A DNA stretch of 64,000 nucleotides from Sphingobacteriales bacterium 50-39. GTDB taxonomy: Bacteria > Bacteroidota > Bacteroidia > Chitinophagales > Chitinophagaceae. Location: NCBI GenBank assembly GCA_001898505.1, contig MKTZ01000010.1, forward strand, positions 186,001-250,000, read 5' to 3'. Position numbers and translations under genes: made by a program. Under the pieces are notes generated by a model, which saw nothing but the letters and a program-made list of their open reading frames with translations, had not been told where the DNA came from and searched no databases. Shown here in pieces: positions 8,419 through 47,214 of the stretch; position 1 is the first letter of the stretch; each line of letters starts with the position of its first letter.

Positions 8419-8431
8419 TATGCTATATTTA

Positions 8432-8451
8432 CAGACTGGATCAGACTAGTA
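8432..8451 (+). promoter_or_regulatory. Tandem 10-bp repeat, candidate operator (copy 2)
   Basis: CAGACTGGAT and CAGACTAGTA lie head to tail and end 5 bp before the glycosidase ATG. The second unit is identical to the second unit at 884-893. A TATATTTA box (8424-8431), close to the Bacteroidota -7 element, directly precedes it, although no well-spaced -33 TTG was found. The repeat would therefore fall at the transcript start and in a very short leader. Confidence 0.55.
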
Positions 8452-8456
8452 TACTT

Positions 8457-26628: not shown

Positions 26629-27957
26629 ATGCCAACCCGTCGACAATTTCTTCAGCAGGGCTCCCTCGCAGCGGGCGGAGCTCTTTTGCTTTCCTCCTTT
26701 GACAGCAAGACGTTTTCATCCTTAGGGCGTATGTCAGCCGCCGACCATATCAATATAGGGGCTATCGGCATCAATGGGATGGGGTGGGCCGATCTTTCGG
26801 CTGCCCTGAAGCTGCCCGGCGTCAATGTGGTAGCTCTTTGCGATGTAGACAGGAATGTCCTTGACAGAAGGATGAAAGATCTTTCCAAGATAAATGTGGA
26901 TACCAGCAAGGTAAAGACCTATTCCGACTACCGGAAGCTGCTGGAGCAGAAGGATATCGATGCGGTGATTATCGGCACTCCCGATCATTGGCATGCGTTG
27001 ATCATGATCGAGGCATGTCAGGCCGGGAAGGATGTCTATGTAGAAAAGCCGGTGGGTAATTCCATTGGTGAATGCAGGGCCATGATGGCTGCCCAGCAGC
27101 GATACAACCGTGTGGTCCAGGCAGGGCAGTGGCAGCGCAGCCAGCAGCATTTCAAGGATGCGGTGGATTATGTGCAGTCGGGTGTGCTTGGTAATATACG
27201 TACGGTGAAGGTCTGGTGCTACCAGGGCTGGATGAAGCCCGGGCCGGTGGTGCCGGATTCCAATCCGCCGGAAGGGGTGGATTTTAAGAGGTGGCTGGGG
27301 CCTGCGCCTACCCGCAGCTTCAATGCCAGCAGGTTCCATTTCAACTTCCGCTGGTTCTGGGATTATGCCGGTGGGCTTATGACCGACTGGGGTGTGCATT
27401 TGCTGGACTATGGGCTATTGGGCATGAAGGCCGGGGTACCCAAGACTATTGCCGCCCTGGGTGGAAATTTTGCTTACCCTGATCTTTATGAGGAGACGCC
27501 TGATACCTTGACAACACTGTACCAATTTGATGGTTTCAACCTTGTCTGGGATCATGCGATGGGTATCGACAATGGCTCTTATGGCCGCGACCATGGCATT
27601 GCCTATATCGGCAATAACGGCACGCTGGTGCTTAGCAGGGGGGGATGGGAGGTCATCGAGGAAAAACAGTCAAAGAATAAGGTAAGCAAGCCTTTTGAAA
27701 AGCCGTCGGACAATGGGCTGGACAAGCATATGGCCAACTTCATCGACGTGGTCCGCAGCCGGAAAATGGAGGATTTGCGCTGCAGCATACAAGCTGGCTC
27801 TCACGTTGCAATCGTGGCTCAGATGGGTAATATCAGCTTCCGCAGCGGGCAGCGGCTGGTATGGGATGAAAAGGCGGGCAAATTCGACGCGGATAAGATC
27901 AACCAGCAATATCTGGTGAAAGAATATCATAATGGGTACAAGCTGCCCATGGTGTGA
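26629..27957 (+). CDS. Tat-exported Gfo/Idh/MocA-family oxidoreductase
   Basis: 442-residue NAD(P)-dependent sugar dehydrogenase-like protein with a Tat signal (RRQFLQQGSLAAGGALLLSSF). A Rossmann fold begins at IGAIGINGMGWAD, and the family motif EKPVGNS (Glu-Lys-Pro) lies near residue 140. Exported members in Bacteroidota include the GH109-type enzymes that cleave glycosides through a keto intermediate with tightly bound NAD; membership is plausible but not shown. It lies about 1 kb from the 3-keto-type locus at 28988-39636 and may be part of the same metabolism. Confidence 0.9.
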   Translation: MPTRRQFLQQGSLAAGGALLLSSFDSKTFSSLGRMSAADHINIGAIGINGMGWADLSAALKLPGVNVVALCDVDRNVLDRRMKDLSKINVDTSKVKTYSDYRKLLEQKDIDAVIIGTPDHWHALIMIEACQAGKDVYVEKPVGNSIGECRAMMAAQQRYNRVVQAGQWQRSQQHFKDAVDYVQSGVLGNIRTVKVWCYQGWMKPGPVVPDSNPPEGVDFKRWLGPAPTRSFNASRFHFNFRWFWDYAGGLMTDWGVHLLDYGLLGMKAGVPKTIAALGGNFAYPDLYEETPDTLTTLYQFDGFNLVWDHAMGIDNGSYGRDHGIAYIGNNGTLVLSRGGWEVIEEKQSKNKVSKPFEKPSDNGLDKHMANFIDVVRSRKMEDLRCSIQAGSHVAIVAQMGNISFRSGQRLVWDEKAGKFDADKINQQYLVKEYHNGYKLPMV

Positions 27958-28987: not shown

Positions 28988-29746
28988 TTATTTCCTGCCC
29001 ATGGCGTATTGAATGCCGCCAAGGAGAAGTCCCAGGTAGGCGGGATCCGAATAGGATTCGTCCGTATGTCCCAACTCTATATAGAAGGACCTGCCACCTT
29101 CGTATTCGTGGTACCAGGCCATGGGATGATTGTCGCCATTCTCTCCACCAGTATATGATTTTTCGTCAATCTTCAACAGCACATGGATATTGGGGTTGAG
29201 GTATTTGAAATTATACCATTCATCCCAGCGTGACCATGTTTCGGGCAGGCCTTTTGTGGCGGGGTTATCCTTGTCCACGACGATGATATTGGCCTGTTGC
29301 TGTTTGGGGTGGGACTTGAAATATCCTCCTACCAGATCGCCATACCATTGCCAATTGTATTCGCAGTCGGTGGCGGCGTGTATTCCCAGGAACCCTCCGC
29401 CGTGGTGGATATATTTCTGCAAGGCTTTCTCCTCCTCGGGACCAAATACCTTACCTGTGGGGCTGAGGAAAATGAGCGCGGAGTATTTCTTCAGGTTCTT
29501 GTAACGGAACTGTGTGGAATCTTCTGTGACGTCCACGTCGAAGCCATTCTCTTCTCCCAGCTTTTTTATCGCGACTGTACCGGCTGCTATGCTGGCGTGG
29601 TGGTAGCCATTGGTCTTGCAGAAAATAAGCACTTTGGGCCGGGTAAATATCTCTGGCCAGGAACGGGTTGTCGCACTGGTCAGGAGCAGGCTGGCCATTA
29701 CAAAAGCCAGGACAGCCATAAAGCGGAGAAAGGAAGGTCTTCTCAT
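28988..29746 (-). CDS. ThuA-domain protein, exported
   Basis: 252-residue ThuA-like (trehalose utilisation type) protein with a glutamine-amidotransferase-like fold. The ATG at 29746 is preferred because it starts a signal peptide (MRRPSFLRFMAVLAF...) just 14 bp after the DUF1080 stop; the longer frame runs into that gene. Family motifs include KTNGYHHASI, ALIFLSPTG, HHGGGFLGIHAATDCEYNWQWYGDLVGGYFKSHP and the late SFYIELGHTDESY. It is the last gene of the five-gene minus-strand operon. ThuA proteins often sit with DUF1080 proteins in sugar-degradation loci. Confidence 0.9.
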   Translation of the reverse strand: MRRPSFLRFMAVLAFVMASLLLTSATTRSWPEIFTRPKVLIFCKTNGYHHASIAAGTVAIKKLGEENGFDVDVTEDSTQFRYKNLKKYSALIFLSPTGKVFGPEEEKALQKYIHHGGGFLGIHAATDCEYNWQWYGDLVGGYFKSHPKQQQANIIVVDKDNPATKGLPETWSRWDEWYNFKYLNPNIHVLLKIDEKSYTGGENGDNHPMAWYHEYEGGRSFYIELGHTDESYSDPAYLGLLLGGIQYAMGRK

Positions 29747-29760
29747 GTGGAGGTTACTTA

Positions 29761-30459
29761 TTAAAGTTGTTTTATTTTGATATTGCGATACCATACTTCG
29801 TTGCCGTGATCCTGCAGACAGATCCTGCCTTTCCAGAATGTGCCAAAAGCGGGCCATTGTTTGAACTTGCTGTCTGCTACCATTTTTTTCCATTCCTCAT
29901 TCCACCGGGTGGTGGATACCACATTGACCCCGTTGAGGAATAATTTCAACGTGCCGTCCTTGCTGTATATCTCTACCTGGTTCCATTCTCCTACGGGCTT
30001 GACCGACTCTTTACTACAGGCGATGAGATCATACAGATCGCCCGCGCGGTGTTTGTGTATCTTACCGTCGGGGTGTCCGTCGTTGTCGAGCACCTGCATT
30101 TCGGGGCCTGTGTAATAGGACTCTTTGTATTTGGCAGTATCTTCTTGTACGTAAAAGAGGATGCCGCTGTTGCCTTTTGGCGATATTTTCCATTCCAGCC
30201 GGAGGTCGAAGTTGCCGTAGACGCCGTCTGTGGCGAGATCACCTTGCCCTTTTTTCGACTTGTCCAGGTGGAGGGCGCCATCCTTTACTTCCCATTGAGG
30301 GTCGGTCTGGGACTTACCGAATGTGTGCCATCCTTTTGTAGTCTTTCCGTCGAAAAGCGTTTTCCATCCGCCGTCGGCGTTTTTATTGTGTTTGGCCCTG
30401 GAAACAGGTAGGGCTGCCATCAATAGGAGGGCAGGCAGGGCAGCAATCGTATATTTCAT
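29761..30459 (-). CDS. DUF1080 (3-keto-disaccharide hydrolase domain) protein
   Basis: 232-residue exported protein with a concanavalin-like beta-jelly roll. It shows the family start WKTLFDGKTTKGWHTFGK, the middle DLRLEWKISPKGNSGILFYVQ, and PTGEW-type variant KPVGEWNQVEIYSKDGTLKLFLNGV. The domain (PF06439) is known from 3-keto-glucoside hydrolases, which cut sugars first oxidised at C3. The operon also encodes a cytochrome c and a sugar isomerase, and the divergent arm encodes GMC dehydrogenases, so this is the likely hydrolytic step. The cytochrome gene lies 5 bp upstream. Confidence 0.93.
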   Translation of the reverse strand: MKYTIAALPALLLMAALPVSRAKHNKNADGGWKTLFDGKTTKGWHTFGKSQTDPQWEVKDGALHLDKSKKGQGDLATDGVYGNFDLRLEWKISPKGNSGILFYVQEDTAKYKESYYTGPEMQVLDNDGHPDGKIHKHRAGDLYDLIACSKESVKPVGEWNQVEIYSKDGTLKLFLNGVNVVSTTRWNEEWKKMVADSKFKQWPAFGTFWKGRICLQDHGNEVWYRNIKIKQL

Positions 30460-30464
30460 GTTGT

Positions 30465-30884
30465 TTATTTCTTCAATGTCATGATGTATTTCACGATCGT
30501 CGTCGCATCATCCTTGGTGAGAGCTGCGTGAGGGGTCATGGGAACTGTGCCCCATACGCCGCTGCCGCCGGATATGATCTTACCGGCCAGCCTGTCGATG
30601 GTGGTGTCGGCTGCGGGGGCATATTTAGCCGCCACTTCGTCGTAAGCGGGTCCGATGGAGGCGCCGCTGCTGGCCTTGTTCAGACGATGACAGGTGGTAC
30701 AGTCGCTGCTGCCGATGAGCTCCAGGCCTTTGGTGTCGCCTGTGGCGGCGGCAGCCGGAGCCGTAGTGCCGGATGTGCTACCGGAATCTTTTTTTTCTGC
30801 AGGTTTGGAGCTGTCAGAGCCGCCGCATGCTGCTGCGAGCAGGCTGCAAGATAAAATAAAGACTAGTCCTTTCTTCATAAACAC
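30465..30884 (-). CDS. Lipoprotein c-type cytochrome
   Basis: 139-residue lipoprotein (lipobox LAAAC, Cys20) with a Ser/Thr/Ala-rich linker, then a single heme c site CTTCH (Cys62, Cys65, His66). The likely axial Met is Met116 in GTVPMTPHA. It is a small class I cytochrome and a plausible electron acceptor for the GMC dehydrogenases on the divergent strand, as in Caulobacter-type LacA/LacB/LacC systems. An in-frame ATG two codons downstream is an equally good start. Confidence 0.92.
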   Translation of the reverse strand: MFMKKGLVFILSCSLLAAACGGSDSSKPAEKKDSGSTSGTTAPAAAATGDTKGLELIGSSDCTTCHRLNKASSGASIGPAYDEVAAKYAPAADTTIDRLAGKIISGGSGVWGTVPMTPHAALTKDDATTIVKYIMTLKK

Positions 30885-30943
30885 AATTTTTAGATGAGGG
30901 TCAATGTCCGGAATGGATTTGCCGCCCCAAGTTCCGAAATAAT

Positions 30944-31999
30944 TTATTGCAACCCTAGAACGGAGCGATTAAATTTTTCATCGCTGCCGGTGCCGGCGAA
31001 GTCGTCGAACGCTCTTTCCGTGACACGTATGATATGATCCTTGATAAAGGGAGCTCCTTCCTTAGCCCCATCTTCCGGATGTTTGAGCGCACATTCCCAT
31101 TCCAGCACTGCCCAGCCTTTGTAATCATAGGCCGTGAGCTTGCTGAAAATGGATTTGAAGTTGACCTGGCCGTCGCCGAGCGAGCGGAAGCGGCCGGCGC
31201 GATCCACCCATCCCTGGTAGCCCCCGTAGACGCCTTGTTTACCGGTGGGATTGAATTCGGCGTCCTTGACGTGGAACATACGGATACGTTCGTGGTAATT
31301 GTCGATGTATTCCAGGTAATTCAGACATTGCAGGACGAAGTGGGAGGGATCGTACAGCAGACAGGCCCTGGGGTGGTTGTTGGTGTGCTCGAGGAACATT
31401 TCATAGGTGATGCCGTCGTGCAGGTCTTCTCCCGGGTGGATCTCGTAGCAGAGGTCCACGCCGTACTTGTCGAATTCATCGAGGATGGGCATCCAGCGGG
31501 CGGCCAACTCTTTAAAACCTGTCTCGACCAACCCGGCGGGGCGCTGGGGCCAGGGATAGACCGTAGGCCAGAGCAGGGCTCCGCTGAAAGTGGCGTGAGC
31601 ATTCAATCCCAGGTTTTGGGATGCCCTGGCTGCATACTTCAGCTGCTGGACCGCCCATTGCTGGCGGGCTTTGGGATTGTTGCGCACGCTGTCCGGGGCA
31701 AAGCCGTCGAAAAGTGCGTCATAGGCCGGGTGTACCGCTACCAATTGCCCCTGTAAGTGGGAGGAGAGTTCGGTGATCTGAAGGCCTGCCTCCTGTACGA
31801 TGCCTTTTATCTCATCGGCATAGGTCTTACTTTCCGCCGCTTTTTGGAGGTCGATGCAGCGGCTGTCCCAGCTGGGTATCTGCACTCCGATGTATCCGAG
31901 GCCGGCGGCCCATTTACAGATGGAGGCGAGTGAATTGAAAGGGGGCTTGTCTCCCATGAATTGAGCGAGGAAGATGCCGGGTCCTTTGATAGTTTGCAT
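30944..31999 (-). CDS. Sugar phosphate isomerase/epimerase (AP endonuclease 2 family TIM barrel)
   Basis: 351-residue TIM-barrel protein without a signal peptide, so cytoplasmic. Metal-binding positions are suggested by YEIHPGEDLHDG (Glu/His), LLYDPSHFVLQ (Asp, His) and FHVKDAEF (His, Asp). It belongs to the xylose isomerase-like superfamily, whose members epimerise or isomerise ketose-type sugars. It is 18 bp from the upstream oxidoreductase gene and 59 bp from the cytochrome gene, in a keto-sugar operon. It may act on 3-keto-sugars (inference). Confidence 0.9.
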   Translation of the reverse strand: MQTIKGPGIFLAQFMGDKPPFNSLASICKWAAGLGYIGVQIPSWDSRCIDLQKAAESKTYADEIKGIVQEAGLQITELSSHLQGQLVAVHPAYDALFDGFAPDSVRNNPKARQQWAVQQLKYAARASQNLGLNAHATFSGALLWPTVYPWPQRPAGLVETGFKELAARWMPILDEFDKYGVDLCYEIHPGEDLHDGITYEMFLEHTNNHPRACLLYDPSHFVLQCLNYLEYIDNYHERIRMFHVKDAEFNPTGKQGVYGGYQGWVDRAGRFRSLGDGQVNFKSIFSKLTAYDYKGWAVLEWECALKHPEDGAKEGAPFIKDHIIRVTERAFDDFAGTGSDEKFNRSVLGLQ

Positions 32000-32017
32000 A
32001 TGACAATACTTTTTTGG

Positions 32018-33178
32018 TTAGTCGATTGTGAAGAAGGTCCATTTTTCCAGGCTTTCGTTGCTTTTGACGACATTGTCGATGAAGGCCATGCCACGGACGC
32101 CATCTGCAGCTGTGGGGAAGTCCAGCTCTTCGGGAGTGGGTGTTCTTCCTTCCAGGCGGGCGGACAGGGTCAGCGCAAAGTTGCGGTAGAGGTTGGCGAA
32201 TGCCTCCAGGTAGCCTTCTGGATGGCCGGGAGGGGTTCGGGTGTTGTGTTTGGCATATGAAGAAAGATAGCCCATGCCGGCGCGATAGACCTGTGTGGGT
32301 TGATCCAGCCATTTTACCAGCAGTGTATTGGGTTCCTGCTGTGCCCATTCCAGACCGCCATTTTCTCCATATACGCGTATCTTGACGGCATTCTCTTCTC
32401 CTGCAGCAACCTGGGAGGCGAACAATACGCCGGTGGCGCCGTTGTCGAATCGTAAGAGGACATTTCCGTCGTCGTCCAGGGCTCTTCCTTTTACAAAAAT
32501 GCTCAGGTCGGCGCAGAGCTGTTTGATCTGGAGACCGCTGATATATTCTGCCAGGTGGGCTGCGTGTGTACCGATATCCCCCATACAGCCGGCCTTGCCT
32601 GAGCGGGAGGGATCTGTTCGCCATTCCGCCTGTTTGCTGCCATCTTTCTCCGAGAGGCGGCTGAGCCAGCCCTGGGGATATTCGACATATATCTTTCTTA
32701 TCTTACCGAAGACACCTTCTTTTACCATCTGCCGGGCCTGTTTGACCATTGGGTAGCCCGAATAGGTATGTGTCAGACAAAGCAGGAGACCTGTGTCGTT
32801 GACCTTTTTTTCCAATTTCTTAGCCTCATCCTGCGAAAAAGTCATAGGCTTGTCGATGACGACATGGAATCCTTTTTCCAGGGCCAGCATGGCGGGTTCG
32901 AAATGCAGGTGATTGGGGGTAACGATGGCGACGAAGTCCATGCGTTTGCCGGCGGGCAACTGACTTTCCTTTTCTATCATTTCTTTATAGCTGCCGTAGA
33001 TGCGATCTTCCGGCAGGAATAAGGCGAGACCGGACTCTTTTGCTGTAGCGGGATTGCTGCTGAGGGCTCCGCATACGAGTTCGATGAGTCCGTCCATATT
33101 GGCTGCGATGCGGTGCACGGCGCCGATGAAGGCGTTCTTGCCTCCACCGATCATTCCCATTTTTAATTTGCGTTTCAT
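32018..33178 (-). CDS. Gfo/Idh/MocA-family oxidoreductase (cytoplasmic)
   Basis: 386-residue NAD(P)-dependent oxidoreductase. The ATG at 33178 is preferred since it gives MKRKLKMGMIGGG, the Rossmann start; upstream codons are not conserved in character. The DKPMTFS motif is the usual family signature (Lys of the catalytic region), and HAAHLAEYISGLQ lies in the substrate domain. No signal is present. As first gene of the minus-strand operon it could reduce a 3-keto sugar after uptake (family precedent: keto-sugar reductases in sugar catabolism; role inferred). Confidence 0.92.
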   Translation of the reverse strand: MKRKLKMGMIGGGKNAFIGAVHRIAANMDGLIELVCGALSSNPATAKESGLALFLPEDRIYGSYKEMIEKESQLPAGKRMDFVAIVTPNHLHFEPAMLALEKGFHVVIDKPMTFSQDEAKKLEKKVNDTGLLLCLTHTYSGYPMVKQARQMVKEGVFGKIRKIYVEYPQGWLSRLSEKDGSKQAEWRTDPSRSGKAGCMGDIGTHAAHLAEYISGLQIKQLCADLSIFVKGRALDDDGNVLLRFDNGATGVLFASQVAAGEENAVKIRVYGENGGLEWAQQEPNTLLVKWLDQPTQVYRAGMGYLSSYAKHNTRTPPGHPEGYLEAFANLYRNFALTLSARLEGRTPTPEELDFPTAADGVRGMAFIDNVVKSNESLEKWTFFTID

Positions 33179-33207
33179 CCTATATTTTATTAAACCATTT
33201 AATTTGA

Positions 33208-33224
33208 CCCGCCTGATCGGCGGG
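33208..33224 (-). promoter_or_regulatory. Leader hairpin of the minus-strand operon
   Basis: CCCGCC and GGCGGG pair around a 5-nt loop. The hairpin lies 29 bp upstream of the ATG at 33178, in the probable 5' leader of the Gfo/Idh-first operon. It could be an operator or a translation control element; no known riboswitch structure is recognised. Confidence 0.4.
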
Positions 33225-33341
33225 AGGGAGCACAATTTTAATGCATCTTAGTGGAAATTCATCTTATTTGTAAGCTTTTGGTACATTTTCTAAGTAATTG
33301 GTGTCTATTTTAAGGAATTATTGATATAGCACCGCTTTAGC

Positions 33342-33416
33342 AGTGTAGTTTTTTAAAATAAAAAAGTACATTTACCACTCTTACGAAACCTAACAAGCAC
33401 ATTTAAAAACTACACT
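33342..33416. promoter_or_regulatory. Divergent control region with a split inverted repeat
   Basis: AGTGTAGTTTTT (33342-33353) is the exact reverse complement of AAAAACTACACT (33405-33416), with 51 bp between the arms. The second arm ends four bases before the MFS start codon. The arms flank a TACATTTA box at 33367-33374, so they bracket the likely start point of the plus-strand operon. Possible paired operator sites. Confidence 0.5.
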
Positions 33417-33420
33417 TGCC

Positions 33421-34668
33421 ATGTCTGCAAACATTCACGCTAACAAGCTTTTTCTCGCCAGCCGGATAGCTCTTATTTTCACGGCTATGACCTTTGCCTT
33501 CCGGGCTTCGCTGGAGGGGGTATGGGGAACTGAATTTCATTTAGACAAGGAACAAATAGGATGGATATTCAGTCCTGCGTTCTATGGCTTTACGCTGGCG
33601 ATGATCTTTGGGGGGCCGTTGTGTGATGTGCTGGGTATGAAGAAATTGTTAGGATTGGCTTTTATCGGTCATATAGCCGGAGCGATCGTCTATCTGCTGG
33701 CCAAAGATGCGACCATGCTGTTCATCGGGACGTTGTGTATGGGTATCGGCAACGGGATGGTGGAAGCTGCCTGTAATCCGCTGACGGTGACGCTTTATCC
33801 CAATAACAAGACGATGATGTTGAACAGGTTCCATGTCTGGTTTCCCGGTGGTCTGGCGTTGGGTGGCGTCATAGCATATTTATTGATGGACCAGCTGCAT
33901 CTGAACTGGCATGTGCTGATCGGCGTATTGTTTATTCCTGCCATTATATATGGATGGATGTTTTGGAGCCTGGAATTTCCCAAGACGGAAAGAGTTACCA
34001 GCGGTGTTAGCACGAAAGATATGTTCCTTTCCTGTCTGAACCCTCTTTTCCTGGTAATGCTGGCCTGTATGTTCCTGACTGCGGCGACGGAGCTGGGGAC
34101 GAACCAATGGATCGTTGCTTTATTGCAGGGGGCGAATGTTTCGGGCATCCTTGTACTGGTGTTCATCAATGGTCTTATGGCATTGGGCAGAAGCTTTGCG
34201 GGACCGGTGGTACACCGTCTGAACCCGAACGGGATGCTGATCCTCTCCGCGATATTATCCGCCATCGGATTGATCCTGATGAGCAAGGCCAGCGGTTATG
34301 CAGCTTTTGGGGCAGCCTTTGTATTTGCCGCGGGTATCTGTTTCTTCTGGCCGACCATGCTGGGTTTTGTAGCTGAGTATGTACCCAAATCCGGGGCGCT
34401 GGGGCTTTCGATCATGGGGGGCGCGGGCATGTTCTCCGTATCGCTGATATTGCCCCTGATGGGAAAATGGTATCAGAATTTCAAGGATGCCGCTATTGCC
34501 GGAGGGACTGACGCCGCGCACGCCGATGCTATTGCGGGCTCCAATACTTTTATGAAAGTGGCTATTATGCCGGCGATACTGATCGTGGTATTTACGCTCA
34601 TATATATAGTCCGTCGCAAAACATATGCTGCTCATAAACAGCAAATGCAGCCCGGATCGGCCAATTAA
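33421..34668 (+). CDS. MFS transporter
   Basis: 415-residue inner-membrane carrier with about 12 hydrophobic segments. The N-terminal half has GWIFSPAFYGFTLAMIFGGPLCDVLG, a motif-A-like loop (GPLCDVLGMKKLL), and the middle shows NRFHVWFPGGLALGG. It most resembles sugar or nucleoside-type MFS carriers (FucP/NHS-like); substrate unknown. It heads the plus-strand operon that continues with the isomerase-like and GMC genes, so it probably imports the oxidised or released sugar. Confidence 0.9.
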   Translation: MSANIHANKLFLASRIALIFTAMTFAFRASLEGVWGTEFHLDKEQIGWIFSPAFYGFTLAMIFGGPLCDVLGMKKLLGLAFIGHIAGAIVYLLAKDATMLFIGTLCMGIGNGMVEAACNPLTVTLYPNNKTMMLNRFHVWFPGGLALGGVIAYLLMDQLHLNWHVLIGVLFIPAIIYGWMFWSLEFPKTERVTSGVSTKDMFLSCLNPLFLVMLACMFLTAATELGTNQWIVALLQGANVSGILVLVFINGLMALGRSFAGPVVHRLNPNGMLILSAILSAIGLILMSKASGYAAFGAAFVFAAGICFFWPTMLGFVAEYVPKSGALGLSIMGGAGMFSVSLILPLMGKWYQNFKDAAIAGGTDAAHADAIAGSNTFMKVAIMPAILIVVFTLIYIVRRKTYAAHKQQMQPGSAN

Positions 34669-34754
34669 TGTTTTTTTAATGCCATGCGTCCTTTTTGTGG
34701 CTGGATGCATGCGAACATTTTGTAAATTACTTTTTTTAACGACCGGAACCATTT

Positions 34755-35645
34755 ATGTCTAATCCATCCTCCCGACGTCTTGCTATCAAGAACATTGTAG
34801 CGGGGACAGCAGTATTGGGAACAGCGGGTATGCTGTCGTCCTTTGACAGCCCTGAAGAAGCAAATCAAAAGAACATGGCCTTTAAGGGTAATATCAATCA
34901 CTCCGTATGCCGGTGGTGCTATGGGGACATTCCATTGGATCAATTATGTAAAGCGGTAAAGAAGATAGGTTTTAGCGCCATCGATCTGGTAGGTCCTAAA
35001 GACTGGCCTGTGTTGAAGGAGAACGGCATCTGGTCGTCCATGTGCAATGGGGCGGAGATAAGTCTGACCAAGGGCTGGAATCATACGGAATATCATGAGA
35101 CGCTGATAAAGAACTATACCGAGCACATCGATCTTGTCGCCACCGCGGGTTATAAGAACCTCATTTGTTTCAGCGGTAATTGCGAAGGGATGGATAGGGA
35201 AACGGGTCTAAAGAATTGTGTGGATGGATTGAAAAAGATCATCGGGCAGGCGGAGAAAAGCGGGGTCATTATCCATATGGAGCTGCTGAACAGCAAGGTG
35301 AATCATCCCGACCAGATGTGCGACAATTCAAAATGGGGTGTCGAACTGGTGAAGCGGGTGGGTTCCGAAAATTTCAAGCTGTTGTATGATATCTATCATA
35401 TGCAGATAGATGAGGGAGATGTTATCCGGACCATCAACGACAATCATCAATATTTTGGTCATTATCATACGGGTGGGGTACCTGGTCGTCATGAGATCGA
35501 CGATTCGCAGGAGCTTTATTATCCTGCCATCATGAAGGCGATAGTGGCTACAGGATACAAGGGCTATGTGGCGCAGGAGTTCATACCTGCCAGACCGGAC
35601 AAGCTGAGGAGCCTGAAGCAGGGCGTACGCATCTGTGATGTGTAA
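34755..35645 (+). CDS. Exported hydroxypyruvate-isomerase-like TIM-barrel protein
   Basis: 296-residue protein with a Tat-like leader (RRLAIKNIVAGTAVLG...) followed by a hydroxypyruvate isomerase/xylose isomerase-like barrel. Metal-site residues are suggested by HMELLNSKVNHPDQMCDNSKWG (Glu), YDIYHMQIDEGD (Asp, His), GHYHTGGVPGRHEID (His) and YVAQEFIP (Glu). It is probably an envelope isomerase or epimerase in the same pathway as the cytoplasmic one at 30944-31999. Two related isomerases in opposite compartments of one locus is notable. Confidence 0.87.
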   Translation: MSNPSSRRLAIKNIVAGTAVLGTAGMLSSFDSPEEANQKNMAFKGNINHSVCRWCYGDIPLDQLCKAVKKIGFSAIDLVGPKDWPVLKENGIWSSMCNGAEISLTKGWNHTEYHETLIKNYTEHIDLVATAGYKNLICFSGNCEGMDRETGLKNCVDGLKKIIGQAEKSGVIIHMELLNSKVNHPDQMCDNSKWGVELVKRVGSENFKLLYDIYHMQIDEGDVIRTINDNHQYFGHYHTGGVPGRHEIDDSQELYYPAIMKAIVATGYKGYVAQEFIPARPDKLRSLKQGVRICDV

Positions 35646-35696
35646 TGATGGGCCGTCCATGAAAATGATCTTTTCAATTTTTAAATACTAACGTGT

Positions 35697-37376
35697 ATGG
35701 CTGACAATACGTATGATGCAATTGTGATCGGGTCGGGTATTAGTGGAGGCTGGGCCGCCAAGGAGCTTACCGAAAAAGGATTAAGTACTATAATGCTGGA
35801 GCGGGGCCGCAACATCGAGCATATAAAAGATTATCCGAGCGCCAACAAAGAGGCCTGGGATTTTCCTCATCGCGGAAAGGCTACTGAGCAGATGAAGCAT
35901 GATTATCCCGTGCTGAAAAGGGATTATCCACTGAGCGAATGGAACCTGGACTTTTGGGTAAAGGACAGTGAATGTCCTTATACGGAGACAAAGCGATTTG
36001 ACTGGTTCAGGGGTTATCATGTTGGCGGAAGATCGTTGATGTGGGGACGTCAGAGCTACCGTTTTAGCGACTTCGACTTTGAAGCGAATGCGAAAGAAGG
36101 AATTGGCGTGGATTGGCCCATCCGTTATAAAGAGATCGCGCCCTGGTATGACTATGTCGAAAGATTTGCGGGGATCAGTGGAAGTAAGGAGGGGTTGCCT
36201 CAATTACCGGATGGTCAGTACCTGCCTCCTTATGATATGACGTGCGTGGAGAAGGATGTTTCGGCCCGGATAAAGGAGCATTACAAGGGCATGCGACATA
36301 TGATCATCGGCAGGACGGCCAATATCACCGTACCGCATGGCGGAAGGCCCGGCTGCCAGTTCCGGAACAAATGCGCGCTGGGCTGTCCATTTGGGGGATA
36401 TTTCAGCACACAATCGTCTACGCTGCCTGCTGCGATGAAGACAGGCAAGCTTACATTGCGTCCCTGGTCCATTGTCACCAAGATCCTGTATGATAAAGAT
36501 AAAAAGAAGGCAACGGGCGTAGAGGTATTGGATGCGGAAACGAACAAGACCTACCAGTATTTTGCAAAGATCATTTTCCTGAATGCGTCTACGCTGAACA
36601 GCGCCTGGATACTGATGAATTCCGCTACGGATATATGGCCCGACGGATTGGGCAGCAGCAGCGGCGAACTGGGGCATAACCTGATGGACCATCATCTGGG
36701 TGTGGGCGCCGGCGGACATGTAGAGGGTTATGAGGACAAGTATTATTTCGGCAGACGCGCCAATGGTATCTATATTCCCCGGTATCGCAATCTTTTTGGC
36801 GACAAACGGGATTATCTGCGTGGCTTTGGCTATCAGGGTGGAGGAGGCCGTGAAGGGTATAATCATGAGATAGCGGAATACGCCATTGGAAAGGAATACA
36901 AGGAGGCGTTGACAGAGCCAGGTCCGTGGAGAATGAATATCGGGGGATTTGGCGAGATACTTCCTTATCATGAAAATAAGGTGACGCTGGACAAGACAAA
37001 GAAGGACAAATGGGGGTTGAATATATTGAACATCGATGCCGAATGGAAGGAGAATGAGCGTAAGATGAGGATTGACATGATGAATGATGCTATTGAAATG
37101 CTGGAGGCGGCGGGAGTGAAGAATGTCAAAGGCCATGATGGCGATGGGACTATCGGGCGCGGTATCCATGAGATGGGTACGGCGCGGATGGGGAAGGATC
37201 CCAAGACCTCTGTGCTGAATTCATTCAACCAGGTATGGGATGCGAAGAACGTGTTTGTCACTGACGGATCGTTTATGACCTCTGCGGCCTGTGTAAATCC
37301 TTCCCTCACGTATATGGCGATGACGGCAAGGGCGGCGGACCATGCGGTAAACGAGCTTAAAAAAGGTAATATATGA
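35697..37376 (+). CDS. GMC-family FAD dehydrogenase (3-keto-sugar forming type)
   Basis: 559-residue FAD flavoprotein without its own signal peptide. An FAD-binding start, VIGSGISGGWAAKEL (Gly12, Gly14, Gly17), is present. The C-terminal GMC domain has HEMGTARMG with catalytic His491 and CVNPSLTYMA with Asn534. A cysteine triplet Cys220-x5-Cys226-x3-Cys230-Pro resembles the [3Fe-4S] site of FAD glucose and gluconate dehydrogenases (inference). It resembles glucoside 3-dehydrogenase/LacA-type enzymes. It overlaps the next GMC gene by 4 bp (ATGA) and is presumably carried across the membrane with the Tat small subunit at 39058. Confidence 0.93.
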   Translation: MADNTYDAIVIGSGISGGWAAKELTEKGLSTIMLERGRNIEHIKDYPSANKEAWDFPHRGKATEQMKHDYPVLKRDYPLSEWNLDFWVKDSECPYTETKRFDWFRGYHVGGRSLMWGRQSYRFSDFDFEANAKEGIGVDWPIRYKEIAPWYDYVERFAGISGSKEGLPQLPDGQYLPPYDMTCVEKDVSARIKEHYKGMRHMIIGRTANITVPHGGRPGCQFRNKCALGCPFGGYFSTQSSTLPAAMKTGKLTLRPWSIVTKILYDKDKKKATGVEVLDAETNKTYQYFAKIIFLNASTLNSAWILMNSATDIWPDGLGSSSGELGHNLMDHHLGVGAGGHVEGYEDKYYFGRRANGIYIPRYRNLFGDKRDYLRGFGYQGGGGREGYNHEIAEYAIGKEYKEALTEPGPWRMNIGGFGEILPYHENKVTLDKTKKDKWGLNILNIDAEWKENERKMRIDMMNDAIEMLEAAGVKNVKGHDGDGTIGRGIHEMGTARMGKDPKTSVLNSFNQVWDAKNVFVTDGSFMTSAACVNPSLTYMAMTARAADHAVNELKKGNI

Positions 37377-39046
37377 ACACCTATGACGCCATCGTTATTG
37401 GATCGGGTATCAGCGGCGGGTGGGCGGCGAAGGAGCTCACTGAAAAAGGGCTGCGTACCCTGATGCTGGAGCGGGGGCGGAACTTCGAGCATATAAAAGA
37501 TTACACGGACACCAATAAGGATCCCTGGGAATTCCCTCATAGGGGAAAGGTGACGCAGCAGGAATTAAAGGACCATCCTTATATCGGAAGGACATGGGGC
37601 GCCACGGAGGCTGTAATAAAGTACTGGGCTAAGGATGTGGACTGTCCTTATACGGAGACAAAGCCTTTCAACTGGTGGAGGTCCTACCAACTGGGAGGGC
37701 GAAGCATTCTCTGGGGCAGGCAAAGCTATCGTTGGAGCGACCTTGATTTTGAGGCCAATGCCAGGGACGGTTGGGCCATCGACTGGCCAATTCGCTATAA
37801 GGATATTGCGCCCTGGTATGATCATGTCGAGCGTTTTGCCGGTGTCAGCGGTTCGGTGGAAGGGTTAGCGCAATTGCCGGATGGTCATTTCCTGCCGCCG
37901 ATGGAAATGAATTGTGTGGAGAAGGATGTGGCGGCGCGTATAAAAGAGCGTTGGAAGGGCCAGCGGCATATGATCATTGGCAGGGTGGCTAATCTGACGG
38001 CGCCTATACCGGGACGCACGCAATGTCAGTTCAGGAACCGTTGCTGGGAGGGCTGTCCTTTTGGGGGCTATTTTAGTACACAGTCTTCCACATTGCCGGC
38101 GGCTGTAGCTACCGGTAACCTGACCGTAAGGCCTTATTCTATTGTCACCAGGATATTGTATGACAAGGACAGCCGGAAGGCAAAGGGGGTGGAAGTATTG
38201 GATGCGGAAACGAACAACACCTATGAGTTCTATGCCAAGATCATCTTTGTCAATGCCAGCGCCCTGAACAGCGCCTGGGTATTGATGAATTCGGCAACGG
38301 ATATTTGGCCCGAAGGATTGGGGAGCAGCAGCGGGGAACTGGGGCATAATATCATGGACCACCACTATAATGTGGGGGCGGCAGGAGTTTTTGAAGGCTA
38401 TGAAGACAAATATGTCTATGGCCGCCGGGCGAACGGCATTTATATAACGCGGTTTGCCAATTTTTTTGGGGACAAACGGGATTATCTGCGCGGCTTTGGC
38501 TACCAGGGCGGCGCCAGCCGGGAAGACTGGAGGAGAAGCGTAGCGGAGCTGAGCATTGGGGCCCAATTAAAAGAAACGCTGACAGAACCCGGGGCATGGA
38601 CCATGGGATTGACGGGTTTTGGAGAGCTGCTGCCTTATCATGATAATAAGATATCGCTGGATAAAAATAAGAAGGATAAGTGGGGGCTGCCTGTGCTGAA
38701 CATGGATGCCGAGCTAAAGGATAATGAGAAGAGGATGCGGAAGGACATGGCGGCGGAGGGAGTAGCGATGCTGGAGGCTGCGGGCGCGAAGAAAGTGCAT
38801 TCGTGGGATAATGGGCATCATGTAGGGGATGGTATTCATGAGATGGGGTCGGCGCGTATGGGGAAGGACCCCAAGACATCGGTGTTGAATGAGCATAACC
38901 AGGTGTGGGATGCTAAAAATGTTTTTGTAACGGACGGCGCCTGTATGACTTCGGCCGCCTGTCAGAACCCTTCGCTGACCTATATGGCATTGACCGCCAG
39001 GGCAGCGGATTTTGCAGTGAAGGAACTAAAAAAAGGTAATATTTAA
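37373..39046 (+). CDS. GMC-family FAD dehydrogenase, second tandem copy
   Basis: 557-residue paralogue of the preceding gene, alike along its whole length. It has the same FAD start (VIGSGISGGWAAKEL), the same Cys triplet (Cys218-x5-Cys224-x3-Cys228-Pro), and the same catalytic ends HEMGSARMG and CQNPSLTYMA. Differences cluster in the region after the first FAD part (GRTWGATEAVIKYWAKDVDCPYTETK) and around residues 370-420, which may shape substrate choice. The ATGA overlap with the first copy indicates translational coupling. Recent duplication is likely, but both frames are intact. A small subunit gene follows 11 bp later. Confidence 0.93.
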   Translation: MNTYDAIVIGSGISGGWAAKELTEKGLRTLMLERGRNFEHIKDYTDTNKDPWEFPHRGKVTQQELKDHPYIGRTWGATEAVIKYWAKDVDCPYTETKPFNWWRSYQLGGRSILWGRQSYRWSDLDFEANARDGWAIDWPIRYKDIAPWYDHVERFAGVSGSVEGLAQLPDGHFLPPMEMNCVEKDVAARIKERWKGQRHMIIGRVANLTAPIPGRTQCQFRNRCWEGCPFGGYFSTQSSTLPAAVATGNLTVRPYSIVTRILYDKDSRKAKGVEVLDAETNNTYEFYAKIIFVNASALNSAWVLMNSATDIWPEGLGSSSGELGHNIMDHHYNVGAAGVFEGYEDKYVYGRRANGIYITRFANFFGDKRDYLRGFGYQGGASREDWRRSVAELSIGAQLKETLTEPGAWTMGLTGFGELLPYHDNKISLDKNKKDKWGLPVLNMDAELKDNEKRMRKDMAAEGVAMLEAAGAKKVHSWDNGHHVGDGIHEMGSARMGKDPKTSVLNEHNQVWDAKNVFVTDGACMTSAACQNPSLTYMALTARAADFAVKELKKGNI

Positions 39047-39057
39047 AAATTTGCACT

Positions 39058-39636
39058 ATGAATAGAAGAGAAGCAATATCGAGAGTAAGCCTGCTGCTGG
39101 GTGGTACGATCCTGGGGGCGGAAGCTTTTCTGGCCGGGTGTCGCCAGCCTGATAAGAATATCGGCGGCGCCGGTATCAATTTCTCGAATGACGACGTCGC
39201 CTTTTTGGACGAGGTAGCGGAGACTATCCTGCCTGCGACGGATACGCCGGGCGCCAAGGAGGCGAAGGTGGGGGATTTTATGACCCGCATAGTCCGTGAT
39301 TGTTACACCGAGAAGGATCAGAAGGTATTTGTCGATGGCATGCAAAAGCTGAATGAAGCCAGCAAGAAAAAGAATGGCCATTCTTTCCTCGATGCGAGCG
39401 CGCAGGAAAGACATGACCTGCTGGTGGATCTGGACAAGGAGCAAAAGCAGTATACCGATAAGAAAAAAGAAGGCGACCCTCCGCATTATTTCAGGTTGAT
39501 GAAGGAGCTGACTCTCTGGGGGTATTTCACATCAGAGCCGGGAGCTACCAAGGCATTGCGTTATGTAGCCGTACCGGGGAAATACCAGGGATGTATCGAC
39601 TATAAGAAGGGAGAGAAGGCCTGGGCGACTACATAA
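39058..39636 (+). CDS. Gluconate 2-dehydrogenase subunit 3-like Tat lipoprotein
   Basis: 192-residue small subunit of a membrane-bound sugar dehydrogenase. The N-terminus NRREAISRVSLLLGG is a Tat signal, followed by a lipobox ending LAGC (about residue 24). The body contains DDVAFLDEVAETILPATDTPGAKEAKVGDFMTRIVRDCY, the hallmark of the subunit 3 family. In gluconate and fructose dehydrogenases the small subunit carries the Tat signal and exports the flavin subunit with it. That fits two GMC proteins here that lack signals. It is the last gene of the operon. Confidence 0.93.
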   Translation: MNRREAISRVSLLLGGTILGAEAFLAGCRQPDKNIGGAGINFSNDDVAFLDEVAETILPATDTPGAKEAKVGDFMTRIVRDCYTEKDQKVFVDGMQKLNEASKKKNGHSFLDASAQERHDLLVDLDKEQKQYTDKKKEGDPPHYFRLMKELTLWGYFTSEPGATKALRYVAVPGKYQGCIDYKKGEKAWATT

Positions 39637-41861: not shown

Positions 41862-42461
41862 GTGTCATTAGAGATTATATATAATGAAAAAGATGCTTTA
41901 GAGCGTATAGCCCAAGGGGACAGAACGGCCTTTAAGGTATTGTACGGGCATTATTACAAGGTGATCCAGAAGTACATAAGTCTTTTTGAACCCTCCAAGG
42001 ACAATTTAGATGAGCTGACACAGGATGTATTTGTGCGTATCTGGGAGAAAAGGGAGCGTTTAGTGGGAGTGGAGTCTTTATCGGGATATCTTTTTATGCT
42101 GACGCGTAATGTGGTCTTTAACTACATGCGGTCAGTGAGGGTGCAGCAACGGACCAGCGAGCTGAACGAAACAATGGATCCCGCGGGGGTGCATCATGTG
42201 GAGCATGCTTTGTTATACAAGCAGTATTATTCCATAGCTGTGGAGGGAATGGAAAAACTGCCTCCCGGCAGAAGGAGGATCCTGAAGATGAGTGTCGAGG
42301 AGGGGTTGACCCTGGATGAGATTGCGGAGAAGTTAAAAATTACCCGGGCTGGGGTAAAGAAACAGCTGTATGCTGCTACTGCATTTGTCAGGCAATATTT
42401 GCTGGAGCACGCCGAAATGACCCTTCTTTTGCTGGCCTTTCTTTCTCTTTTTGATAGATGA
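41862..42461 (+). CDS. FecI-like ECF RNA polymerase sigma factor
   Basis: 199-residue sigma-70 family ECF factor. Region 2 spans about 20-90 (ELTQDVFVRIWEKRERL, SLSGYLFMLTRNVVFNYMRS) and region 4 about 125-185 (MEKLPPGRRRILKMSVEEGLTLDEIAEKLKITRAGVKKQLYAAT). The GTG start gives MSLEIIYNEKDALERIAQGD, a usual N-terminus. The C-terminal end is unusually hydrophobic (MTLLLLAFLSLF). FecR-type anti-sigma follows, then an STN-bearing SusC, so it probably drives transcription of the SusC/SusD pair at 43775-48612 when ligand is transported. Confidence 0.93.
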   Translation: MSLEIIYNEKDALERIAQGDRTAFKVLYGHYYKVIQKYISLFEPSKDNLDELTQDVFVRIWEKRERLVGVESLSGYLFMLTRNVVFNYMRSVRVQQRTSELNETMDPAGVHHVEHALLYKQYYSIAVEGMEKLPPGRRRILKMSVEEGLTLDEIAEKLKITRAGVKKQLYAATAFVRQYLLEHAEMTLLLLAFLSLFDR

Positions 42462-42585
42462 AGAAAGATTTTAACCAATTGATCCTTAACTGTTTGCAAT
42501 TCTTTCTAAAAATTTATTAAAAAACCTGGCTTTCGAGGTATCCCCTGGTGATCGGGATGTGTCTTTATCATATCACCTTATTTTT

Positions 42586-43629
42586 ATGATTCTTAAGGAC
42601 GCCAGGTTATTTGTAGCAAATTTCGTTAAAGGGAAATATACCCCGGAGGAATATGCGTCATTTTTAGCCTGGCTCCAGGATGCCTCGATAGAAGAGCTGG
42701 GAGTTGTTGCGGAAGAGCATGAGGCATTATTCGAACAATGGTCATTGCCAGATGTGGCTCCTTCTCCGGAGTGGGCTCTTCAACTGGAACAAAGACTTGA
42801 TCAGGCAGATGAGCGGGTGAAGGGGAAGTCCGTGAGGAAAATGAGTCCTGCCAGGTTTATGAAGAATCCATGGATAGCAGCAGCGTCGGTTGTATTGCTT
42901 TTGTCTGGCGGATATTTCCTGATCAATGATCATTCGGCTGGCAAAAAAGCGGCTACTGCAGATGGTCATGCTGAAGCTCTTTATAATATGTTTGCAGTGC
43001 CTCGTGGTGGGGCGCAGCAGGAATTTACACTGGCAGATGGCAGTAAGATATGGCTGAATGCCGCCAGTACGTTAAAGTATCCTGTTTCTTTCAACAGTGC
43101 CGAGCGTACGGTTGAATTGTCGGGAGAAGGCTATTTTGAAGTAACGGGCAACGCTACGAAACCTTTTCACGTTAAGATCAAGGGCGCTGAGATAGAAGTG
43201 TTGGGAACGCATTTCAATGTGAAGGCTTACGACGAGGAATCTACCAGCAAGACGACGTTGGTGGATGGAGCTGTAAAAGTGATCAGAGGCTTGGAAACCT
43301 TGCAACTCAAGCCAGGAGATCAAGCTGAAATTAATTATCCTCCATCTGGAAGTGATCCTTCGATGAGGCTTATACGAGGAATAGATATCGATGCAGCCTT
43401 GTCGTGGAAGAATGGAGGTCTGGATTTTAAAGATGACAAACTCTATACCGTTATGCAGGCAATTGCGCGCTGTTATGACCTGGATATACGTTACGAGTCA
43501 GGAGTGCCGAACATTAGTTTCACAGGTAACTTCTCACGAAAATCCAATATCTCCCAAATCTTGAATCAGTTAGAGAGTCAAGGCATACACTGTAAACGGG
43601 ATGGCAAAATTATTACGGTGATGCACTAA
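42586..43629 (+). CDS. FecR-family anti-sigma factor
   Basis: 347-residue inner-membrane anti-sigma regulator. The ATG at 42586 is preferred over an upstream GTG. Cytoplasmic N-terminal domain (about 1-85), one membrane helix (IAAASVVLLLSGGYFLI, about 96-112), then the periplasmic FecR domain (FAVPRGGAQQEFTLADGSKIWLNAAS) and a C-terminal DUF4974 region (GLDFKDDKLYTVMQAIARCYDLDIRY). In the known Fec-like system it relays binding from the STN domain of the partner receptor to the sigma factor. Confidence 0.93.
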   Translation: MILKDARLFVANFVKGKYTPEEYASFLAWLQDASIEELGVVAEEHEALFEQWSLPDVAPSPEWALQLEQRLDQADERVKGKSVRKMSPARFMKNPWIAAASVVLLLSGGYFLINDHSAGKKAATADGHAEALYNMFAVPRGGAQQEFTLADGSKIWLNAASTLKYPVSFNSAERTVELSGEGYFEVTGNATKPFHVKIKGAEIEVLGTHFNVKAYDEESTSKTTLVDGAVKVIRGLETLQLKPGDQAEINYPPSGSDPSMRLIRGIDIDAALSWKNGGLDFKDDKLYTVMQAIARCYDLDIRYESGVPNISFTGNFSRKSNISQILNQLESQGIHCKRDGKIITVMH

Positions 43630-43774
43630 GCACCATATTGTCCATAACCATTGAACCGAGTCCACCAGTTACAGCCCGCCGTCATGGGTAGGTAATTAAA
43701 ATAAGTATGATAAGTATTTATTTTATATTTACTCATGGCTTGTGAGCTGTAACTTTATTTATTAAACCTGCCTC

Positions 43775-46700: not shown

Positions 46701-47203
46701 TATATGAGGGACCAGCCAGCCCAACTTTTTTTGGGAGCTGGCGCAATACTTTCTCCTGGAAACAGTTCGAGCTTTCCTTCAATATCGTTTTCAAGTTTGG
46801 TTATTATTTTAGAAGAAATTCTATTCATTATTATAACCTGTACAACGGAGTTTCGAAGGGAAGCCCGGACTATGACTTACGCTGGCAGAGGCCAGGTGAT
46901 GAAATGATCACCAATGTGCCATCGCGGCCTTCCAAGGCCAATATAAACCGGGATAACTTTTATCAGGATTCGGAAGTGTTGATTGAAAAAGGGGACCATG
47001 TGCGTTGGCAGGATATCCGGCTTAGCTATGACCTTCCAAAGAGATCCTATCCAGGGCTACCGGTACAGGCCATTTGCTTTTATCTTTATGCGAATAATAT
47101 CGGTGTCCTTTGGAGGGCCAACCACAGGGGTATCGACCCTGATTATATCAACAGCCTGCCCAACCCCCGGACCCTGGCCCTGGGATGCAAGCTGGAATTT
47201 TAA
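43775..47203 (+). CDS. SusC/RagA-family TonB-dependent transporter with STN signalling domain
   Basis: 1142-residue outer-membrane transporter. A signal peptide is followed by an STN domain (about 28-108: NASLEKVLNAIRRQTGITFIG, MPYTEALAICFKDQPLRYEMV). A carboxypeptidase-D-like domain (about 110-185), plug and barrel ending KLEF come next. SusC plug motif AAAASIWGAFSGNGVIVLTTKK is present. The STN domain signals to FecR at 42586-43629, making a trans-envelope relay with the sigma factor. The SusD partner starts 11 bp downstream. The 145-bp gap upstream has no gene. Confidence 0.95.
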   Translation: MGSTRRIVCLLLIACLQRSISVYCQSSQPNVTLSEKNASLEKVLNAIRRQTGITFIGESSWAQVAHKVTISVKDMPYTEALAICFKDQPLRYEMVEGGISIHVIKTKEFILKGYVLNEKQEPVPGAAVISRGMGKASTAFTDELGGFSIFLSKQDTSIVISSVSYDTKEVSYSGQTEVKVEVKAKIVELAEASVVGTAHTGYQDVPKERATGSYSQVPNAVIERRVSTSVMDRLDGVTSSLIFNKNIVPGVNQSTITIRGRSTIFGNPDPLIVVDNFPYSGDLNNINPEDIESITVLKDAAAASIWGAFSGNGVIVLTTKKGKYNQKTKWGFTTSLTVGEKPDQYYQPILSSRDYIQVEKFLYDSGFYNARINDPTYPALSPAVEIMLSGNNVQYKLDSLGNIDTRRDFKKYYYQPSVNQLYALNYSGGGKRDHYFISVGYNKDVSNLVANQYDRITFDASNTWNIIPKKLEWNTDVTWTGSKQWNNNIGGINVSYPYLTLTDASGKALAMALDFRLGFVDTVGDGKLLDWHYRPLDELRNADDKTSLRDIRFNTSVRYNIWDGLNANIYYQYQHGKKDERNLQSLQTYFTRNLINSYAQPNANGGYDWPIPQGGILDEMINQYDANNLRLQLNYDHIFSLDHRLNALAGWELRDVEGHANYTQQYGITDEQPAGVPVDYNTLYYLYYSGNVAKIPNPDLHFGTSDRFLSYYANAAYTYKQRYILSASARRDESNLFGVKTNQKGVPLWSAGVAWELSREGFYTAGWLPFLKLRATYGYNGNVDRSVSSYTTAQLSDAPNGYNELFAQITNPPNPSLRWEKIGIFNVGLDFAGKSNRIAGTVEYYSKNGKDLIGQTVMDPTSGVLTFTGNTANTMAHGFDLTLHTRNLAGRLKWSNDWLMSFVQDKVTHYDVTIPSVDDYFRTTSFNPLAGHPLYSIYALKWKGLDPHSGDPLGEANGHIDTTYSQIFNAPVSSLLYEGPASPTFFGSWRNTFSWKQFELSFNIVFKFGYYFRRNSIHYYNLYNGVSKGSPDYDLRWQRPGDEMITNVPSRPSKANINRDNFYQDSEVLIEKGDHVRWQDIRLSYDLPKRSYPGLPVQAICFYLYANNIGVLWRANHRGIDPDYINSLPNPRTLALGCKLEF

Positions 47204-47214
47204 AATCGAGGTGT

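Follow-up and report, generated by a model that had tools for sequence, protein, structure and literature searches.

In the 7.9 Mb genome of Sphingobacteriales bacterium 50-39, a member of the Bacteroidota, ten genes packed into two tight divergent arms probably encode a pathway for the breakdown of glycosides through 3-keto intermediates that is divided between the periplasm and the cytosol. The locus spans positions 28988-39636 of the window, that is, the whole 64,000-nucleotide stretch of contig MKTZ01000010.1 (assembly GCA_001898505.1, positions 186,001 to 250,000) analysed here. A first-pass annotation of this DNA had proposed an oxidative 3-keto glycoside pathway, and in outline it was largely right, since the LacABC-type dehydrogenase, DUF1080 protein, transporter and reductase form a conserved unit, while one gene and one step had been mislabelled. 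Specifically, the minus-arm TIM barrel that it read as a sugar isomerase is instead homologous to 2-hydroxy-3-keto-glucal hydratase. Hence the route is more likely to run through oxidation, elimination, hydration and reduction, the last two in the cytosol, which fits better than the plain hydrolysis followed by isomerisation that had been suggested. What the sequences show directly is gene content, homology, residue conservation, synteny and co-occurrence; each reaction, its C3 position, the cellular locations, the substrate and the transport direction are inferred from them.

Organization of the locus

All ten genes named in the first-pass annotation are open frames at their places, and the Pfam matches of their products agree with the families it had given. 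Neighbouring genes of one arm are separated by -4 to 86 bp and the two arms by 242 bp, and improved start positions were obtained for ThuA (29746) and the Gfo reductase (33178). Signal peptides and cellular locations were read by eye from the N-termini. In order of transcription, the minus arm carries:

32018-33178, minus strand: RED, Gfo/Idh/MocA oxidoreductase, no signal
30944-31999, minus strand: HYD, TIM barrel, 2-hydroxy-3-keto-glucal hydratase homologue, no signal peptide (cytosolic)
30465-30884, minus strand: lipoprotein cytochrome c with a LacB-like role (PF00034, 33.8 bits)
29761-30459, minus strand: DUF1080 protein, 3-keto-disaccharide hydrolase family (3keto-disac_hyd), Sec-type signal
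28988-29746, minus strand: ThuA-like protein (PF06283, 259 bits), N-terminus signal-peptide-like, accessory

The plus arm begins across the divergent intergenic region (33179-33420, 242 bp, between the RED and MFS genes) and carries, again in order of transcription:

33421-34668, plus strand: MFS transporter (PF07690, 93 bits)
34755-35645, plus strand: TIMx, Tat-exported AP_endonuc_2 TIM barrel with an epimerase/isomerase-type metal site
35697-37376, plus strand: GMC1, LacA-like large subunit of a flavin adenine dinucleotide (FAD) dehydrogenase (Pfam GMC)
37373-39046, plus strand: GMC2, second GMC dehydrogenase, 72% identical, cysteine motif kept
39058-39636, plus strand: SUB3, small subunit, gluconate 2-dehydrogenase subunit 3-like and LacC-like, Tat signal (PF13618, Gluconate_2-dh3, 138 bits)

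The hydratase and reductase homologues

The evidence that most changes the reading of the locus comes from HYD. Its best match of known structure, PDB entry 8ro4, was deposited as 2-hydroxy-3-keto-glucal hydratase. The alignment scores 596 bits, spans residues 1-349 out of 350 and has 247 identical columns among 349 (71%, full length). The second-best PDB match, 2zds, scores 149 bits and the IolE entry 3cny 47 bits, and the match to the IolE model is weak (65 bits, cut-off 290). Residues E186-x-H188, D217, H243, E300 and E302, which by analogy presumably bind the metal, are invariant in 94 of 94 sequences. HYD is also 73% identical to an Agrobacterium plasmid protein whose gene adjoins a Gfo gene.

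RED, encoded just upstream, matches PDB entry 3v5n at 387 bits. Its closest NCBIfam model is levoglucosan dehydrogenase, at 102.4 bits with a cut-off of 650, which places it outside that family. We propose that RED may act as a cytosolic 3-keto-sugar reductase.

The predicted periplasmic dehydrogenase

GMC1 and GMC2, together with SUB3 and the cytochrome c, are assigned by homology to a LacABC-type dehydrogenase, for which oxidation of glycosides at C3 is predicted. The best solved match of GMC1 is the large subunit of fructose dehydrogenase (132 bits), with whose cluster cysteines C220, C226 and C230 align; the large subunit of glucose dehydrogenase is also among the best relatives. These three cysteines, the FAD motif residues G12, G14 and G17, and H491 and N534 are invariant in all 86 sequences compared. 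GMC1 shares 71% identity with the GMC protein of Indibacter alkaliphilus LW1; Price et al. (2022, PMC9007349) list the LW1 genome among those with a LacA-like protein at 40% identity or more. The accompanying subunits carry the expected marks of export and electron transfer. In SUB3 the twin arginine (R3, R4) is invariant in 71 of 71 sequences and a lipid-type Cys28 is present in 76%; in the cytochrome c, the columns of the haem motif CXXCH (C62, C65, H66), the axial M116 and the lipid-type Cys20 are at least 85% identical across 45 sequences. GMC1 and GMC2 have no signal of their own, so that they are probably exported together with the small subunit, as is expected for this kind of enzyme. 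Two or more LacA-like GMC genes occur in 10 of 80 related loci collected around TIMx.

That the GMC enzymes oxidise non-sugar alcohols, and that the neighbourhood misleads, is very improbable: models of cholesterol oxidase and of choline dehydrogenase do match the proteins weakly, but the best solved relatives are the two sugar dehydrogenases and every gene around the pair is of a carbohydrate type.

The DUF1080 protein

The cleavage step is assigned to the DUF1080 protein, which covers the whole PF06439 domain (positions 1-187 of 187) at 179 bits against a cut-off of 26.8; its scores against PDB entries, 8rr2 and 8tda among them, reach about 145 bits. It has the QDHG motif of its PDB relatives, and H218 is conserved in at least 90% of 57 sequences. 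We propose that it may serve as a periplasmic 3-keto-glycoside lyase. A Bacteroides member of the family, BT2157, was named 3-ketotrehalose hydrolase by Price et al. (2022, PMC9007349). In addition, a histidine variant deficient in hydration is described for a 3-keto-O-glycoside lyase of Bacteroides thetaiotaomicron (PMC13273386), which we take to be a DUF1080 protein; it follows that the native lyase hydrates and that a single enzyme can carry out elimination and hydration as distinct steps.

The exported TIM barrel

The locus encodes two AP_endonuc_2 TIM barrels (Pfam 125 and 83 bits). TIMx has the E-D-H-E metal site of the fold group of hydroxypyruvate isomerase and ketose 3-epimerase; at 94.9 bits against the NCBIfam hydroxypyruvate isomerase equivalog (cut-off 353) it falls outside that family. 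Around the first metal ligand, placed by sequence, it reads E176-L-L-N179 (consensus MELLNSK), with E176 and N179 invariant. In AtOGE, the catalytic His lies two residues past the first metal ligand (His132/His134). TIMx was considered as a 3-keto-glycoside beta-eliminase of the OGE/CGE type and rejected, since the E176-L-L-N179 segment is missing this His.

By its metal site, TIMx may be a 3-keto-sugar epimerase. In a more specific form of this idea, which we hold to be rather doubtful, TIMx would epimerise 3-keto-glycosides in the periplasm at C2 or C4, much as YcjR of E. coli acts on 3-keto-glucosides, making gluco-configured 3-keto-sugars from galactosides and mannosides, so that many oxidation modules would deliver one imported unsaturated keto-sugar to a single HYD/RED pair. 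If true, this would answer the question about 3-ketogalactose left by Price et al. and explain the use of both lactose and raffinose.

TIMx is not confined to 3-keto gene neighbourhoods, a restriction that was considered and rejected. In Arenibacter echinorum (L107:7744-10846) it is on its own, next to genes for CTP synthase and YidC, which indicates a use outside the pathway, and 15 of the 80 TIMx loci hold no other gene of the set, some of them on short contigs.

Conservation across genomes

The conservation of the gene set was followed from two seeds. For the HYD-seeded set, 44 strong hydratase places were known in genomes other than the source, and 40 of them were used (G046, G127, G064:C1 and G158:C39 were left out); some of the stretches end at contig ends. 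The TIMx-seeded set keeps the 80 closest relatives out of at least 592 candidates, and 50 of these loci have both 10-kb flanks. Thresholds were set by the analysts, as bit scores for both synteny counts (140 bits for DUF1080 in the HYD-seeded one) and as E-values for the genome counts.

Around HYD, RED is present in 36 of the 40 loci, and in 32 of them it shares the strand of HYD and is no more than 400 bp away. The remaining genes follow at lower frequency: LacA-like GMC in 22 loci, DUF1080 and SUB3 in 19 each, cytochrome c in 17, TIMx in 15, MFS in 3 and ThuA in 1. HYD, RED, GMC, SUB3, cytochrome c and TIMx stand together in 12 of the 40, and the weaker half of the list holds mostly HYD and RED only. 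Around TIMx, the 50 full-flank loci contain HYD in 40, RED and SUB3 in 39 each, GMC in 38, cytochrome c in 37, DUF1080 in 33, MFS in 10, ThuA in 6 and a Tat-type Gfo in 2. All six of HYD, RED, GMC, SUB3, cytochrome c and DUF1080 lie near TIMx in 27 of these 50 loci and in 34 of the 80 overall. Both arms are found within one stretch in 22 of the 40 HYD loci and 36 of the 50 full-flank TIMx loci. The first-pass annotation had asked for a check of conserved synteny, and the arms do co-occur in other genomes, contrary to the outcome that it had named as speaking against its reading. The genes cluster and co-occur in many other genomes, more than chance would explain, and the unit that it had envisaged, with a LacABC-type dehydrogenase, DUF1080, a transporter and a Gfo reductase, is kept together across genomes.

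The same association is seen at the level of whole genomes, in a sample of 197 genomes of the same phylum, source excluded, where the Fisher statistics take no account of kinship. Strong HYD matches occur in 42 of them. RED is present in 42 of 42 genomes with HYD versus 21 of 155 without, LacA-like GMC in 42 of 42 versus 15 of 155, and TIMx in 35 of 42 versus 12 of 155. A GMC gene is present in every one of the 47 TIMx-bearing genomes. A distant HYD, about 32% identical, is found in 18 further genomes, with RED in 18 of 18 and GMC in 12 of 18. In each of seven such regions compared (L140-L146), the HYD-like gene, its key residues identical, lies near a RED gene of 53-56% identity; SUB3 and GMC accompany it in L140-L144 and ThuA in L140, L141 and L143. 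This distant relative may be an alternative hydratase.

Among the listed matches, the closest named relative is Flavitalea sp. BT771 (L060), with a TIMx 88% identical; the order of the ten genes, all of which it has, and of the Tat-type Gfo is unchanged. In Hymenobacter volaticus the gene set lies on a plasmid.

Proposed pathway and alternative readings

Taken together, these data suggest the following sequence of events. The LacABC-type dehydrogenase would oxidise the glycoside at C3 in the periplasm, with the respiratory chain receiving the electrons. Cleavage by elimination would then follow, the secreted DUF1080 protein turning the 3-keto-glycoside into a 2-hydroxy-3-keto-glycal, with some 3-keto-sugar formed as well if it hydrates like its Bacteroides relative. 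TIMx would adjust the keto-sugar, probably by epimerising a carbon adjacent to the C3 ketone, and the MFS protein is proposed to import the cleavage product. In the cytosol, HYD would hydrate the 3-keto-glycal and RED would convert the resulting 3-keto-sugar to an ordinary hexose. The source genome has a single strong match for each of HYD, RED and TIMx (the runners-up score 43 bits for RED and 50 bits for TIMx), versus nine GMC matches (seven at 49% identity or more) and 16 DUF1080 places in at most 14 frames; four small subunits are also present. These numbers would fit several oxidation modules that feed one cytosolic HYD/RED end. The energetics would differ from those of one-compartment NAD routes, in that periplasmic oxidation would feed the respiratory chain and cytosolic reduction would cost NAD(P)H.

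Several observations weigh against this pathway. DUF1080 is absent from 21 of the 40 HYD stretches at the 140-bit threshold and LacA-like GMC from 18, and neither HYD nor RED is found in 9 of the 50 full-flank TIMx loci. The direction of the RED reaction is not proven, because the levoglucosan dehydrogenase score is so far below its cut-off. Price et al. (2022, PMC9007349) found no lactose phenotype for any of the ten Pedobacter DUF1080 genes. Finally, the hydrating Bacteroides lyase, thought to be of the DUF1080 family, would leave HYD partly redundant (PMC13273386).

This last point leads to the strongest alternative, which is possible though on balance improbable: the DUF1080 protein would both eliminate and hydrate in the periplasm, the 3-keto-hexose would be imported, and HYD would clear 3-keto-glycal that leaks in or arises otherwise. 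The native Bacteroides enzyme does hydrate (PMC13273386), and the DUF1080 protein of the window keeps QDHG and the conserved H218, whose equivalence to the Bacteroides histidine is presumed. Against this, HYD and RED are present in 40 and 36 of the 40 HYD-seeded loci versus 19 for DUF1080; in this set, which was chosen by HYD, their wider retention suggests that an unsaturated product regularly reaches the cytosol.

A second alternative, which we regard as unlikely, assigns the arms separate jobs: the GMC arm would gain energy by oxidising sugars in the periplasm, and HYD and RED would serve to use other glycosides or inositol-like compounds in the cytosol. Some loci do have HYD and RED without GMC, others TIMx, GMC and small subunit without HYD or RED, and the weak IolE match could be taken in the same sense. 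However, the arms stand together in the majority of loci of both sets and in 42 of 42 genomes, and HYD is far nearer to the hydratase 8ro4 than to the IolE entry.

Transporter, accessory genes and surroundings

The transporter position is variable: in L137:8742-9992 and L106:8761-9999 a nucleoside-H+-symporter-type permease replaces the MFS_1 protein of the window. ThuA is found in 6 of the 80 TIMx-seeded loci (at 150 bits or more), in 1 of the 40 HYD-seeded loci and in 3 of the 7 distant-HYD regions. Three of the latter (L140, L141, L143) have ThuA and no DUF1080 within the stretch, which suggested that ThuA replaces DUF1080; this was rejected, as a DUF1080 gene lies within about 11 kb in those genomes (G003, G050, G155; likewise G008 and G058). 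Among the papers listed by a literature search, no title or abstract opening bears on a link between ThuA and 3-keto chemistry.

A further gene, loosely attached and accessory, precedes the locus:

26629-27957, plus strand: Tat-type Gfo/Idh/MocA protein, twin-arginine motif at the start (by eye)

As to the suggestion that it may belong to the pathway, the gene is real and has the twin-arginine motif, and it is kept (at 400 bits or more) in 2 of 80 loci, the closest two (L060, L061). It scores 183.2 bits against the NCBIfam glycoside 3-dehydrogenase model BT_2158_fam (cut-off 750) and falls outside that family; a role as a second glycoside dehydrogenase is possible. In Pedobacter suwonensis (L106:6316-7773), a Gfo closer to BT_2158_fam (488 bits, below the cut-off) lies inside a 3-keto set with two further TIM-barrel proteins, which makes a second, Gfo-type dehydrogenase plausible in such loci.

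Between the arms, examined by blastn alone, a block at about 33344-33375 upstream of the MFS gene has matches in four of six related loci (L060, L061, L062, L085) and none at that place in L068 and L115; it is possibly the plus-arm promoter. The single regulon of the first-pass annotation is a prediction, and the analysis brought no regulator to light. Downstream of the plus arm (41862-48612) lie what look by eye like a sigma/anti-sigma pair and a SusC-type receptor, followed by a SusD gene identified by a Pfam match. Elsewhere in the window (8343-11894), a 1183-residue open frame has no Pfam match at E 0.001.

Comparison with known systems

Routes of the kind described here have been reported in other bacteria, and the gene set itself has precedents, contrary to the suggestion that the combination might be undescribed. 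The parts are named by Price et al. (2022, PMC9007349) for the lac region of Caulobacter: LacABC, DUF1080, a transporter, two sugar epimerases and a sugar reductase. This list equals that of the window, with its GMC protein, small subunit, cytochrome c, DUF1080, transporter, two TIM-barrel 'epimerases' and reductase. According to the same source, lacABC and one DUF1080 gene have a fitness role in lactose use by Caulobacter crescentus, a putative lactose dehydrogenase of Pedobacter matters on lactose, salicin and other glycosides, and related clusters occur in Indibacter alkaliphilus LW1 (LacA/DUF1080), Algoriphagus aquaeductus T4, Halomonas titanicae and Pedobacter. In Indibacter alkaliphilus LW1 (L137) the order is also that of the window, with DUF1080, cytochrome c, HYD and RED divergent from transporter, TIMx, GMC and SUB3; the window differs in its second GMC, in the ThuA gene ending the minus arm and in an MFS_1 transporter in place of the nucleoside-symporter-type permease. 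Beyond Price et al., no paper joining these gene families was found in a search that covered subscription literature thinly.

The later steps resemble two other routes. In the Agrobacterium tumefaciens GlycDH/OGE/HYD/Gfo operon, elimination of the 3-keto-glucoside falls to one TIM-barrel enzyme and, on preliminary evidence, hydration of the glycal to another (Bitter et al. 2023, PMC10628242). The logic of C3 oxidation, elimination, hydration and reduction is shared, whereas Agrobacterium uses a Gfo-type dehydrogenase and a TIM-barrel eliminase where the window has a periplasmic GMC/cytochrome c system and a DUF1080 protein predicted to cleave. The levoglucosan pathway LgdA/B1/B2/C (Kuritani et al. 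2020, PMC7676230) likewise shares the four steps, with TIM-barrel and dehydrogenase enzymes, but begins with an NAD-linked dehydrogenase, unlike the window, whose RED lies outside the levoglucosan dehydrogenase model. The BT2157-BT2158 glycoside 3-dehydrogenase route of Bacteroides, as described in PMC11300592 and PMC9007349, also combines periplasmic C3 oxidation with a DUF1080 enzyme (BT2157). There, the dehydrogenase BT2158 is of the Gfo type, whereas the main one of the window is of the GMC type and its Gfo at 26629 is only a distant relative of BT_2158_fam.

The present analysis adds that, of the two 'epimerases' in such loci, one is homologous to a hydratase and the other, in the window, appears exported and of an epimerase type, and that the set is widespread in the Bacteroidota. 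The pathway is real and conserved, and probably functional. Price et al. (2022, PMC9007349) leave the fate of the 3-keto-sugar, and of 3-ketogalactose, open, and the hydratase match supplies a likely answer for the former. From the fixed link between a periplasmic respiratory dehydrogenase and cytosolic HYD and RED one would expect the cell to import either an unsaturated keto-sugar or a keto-hexose, and to pay for the outer oxidation with a reduction in the cytosol. The finding thus joins the LacABC/DUF1080 genetics, whose later steps were open, with the Agrobacterium elimination-hydration route, for which the structure of a hydratase has been solved.

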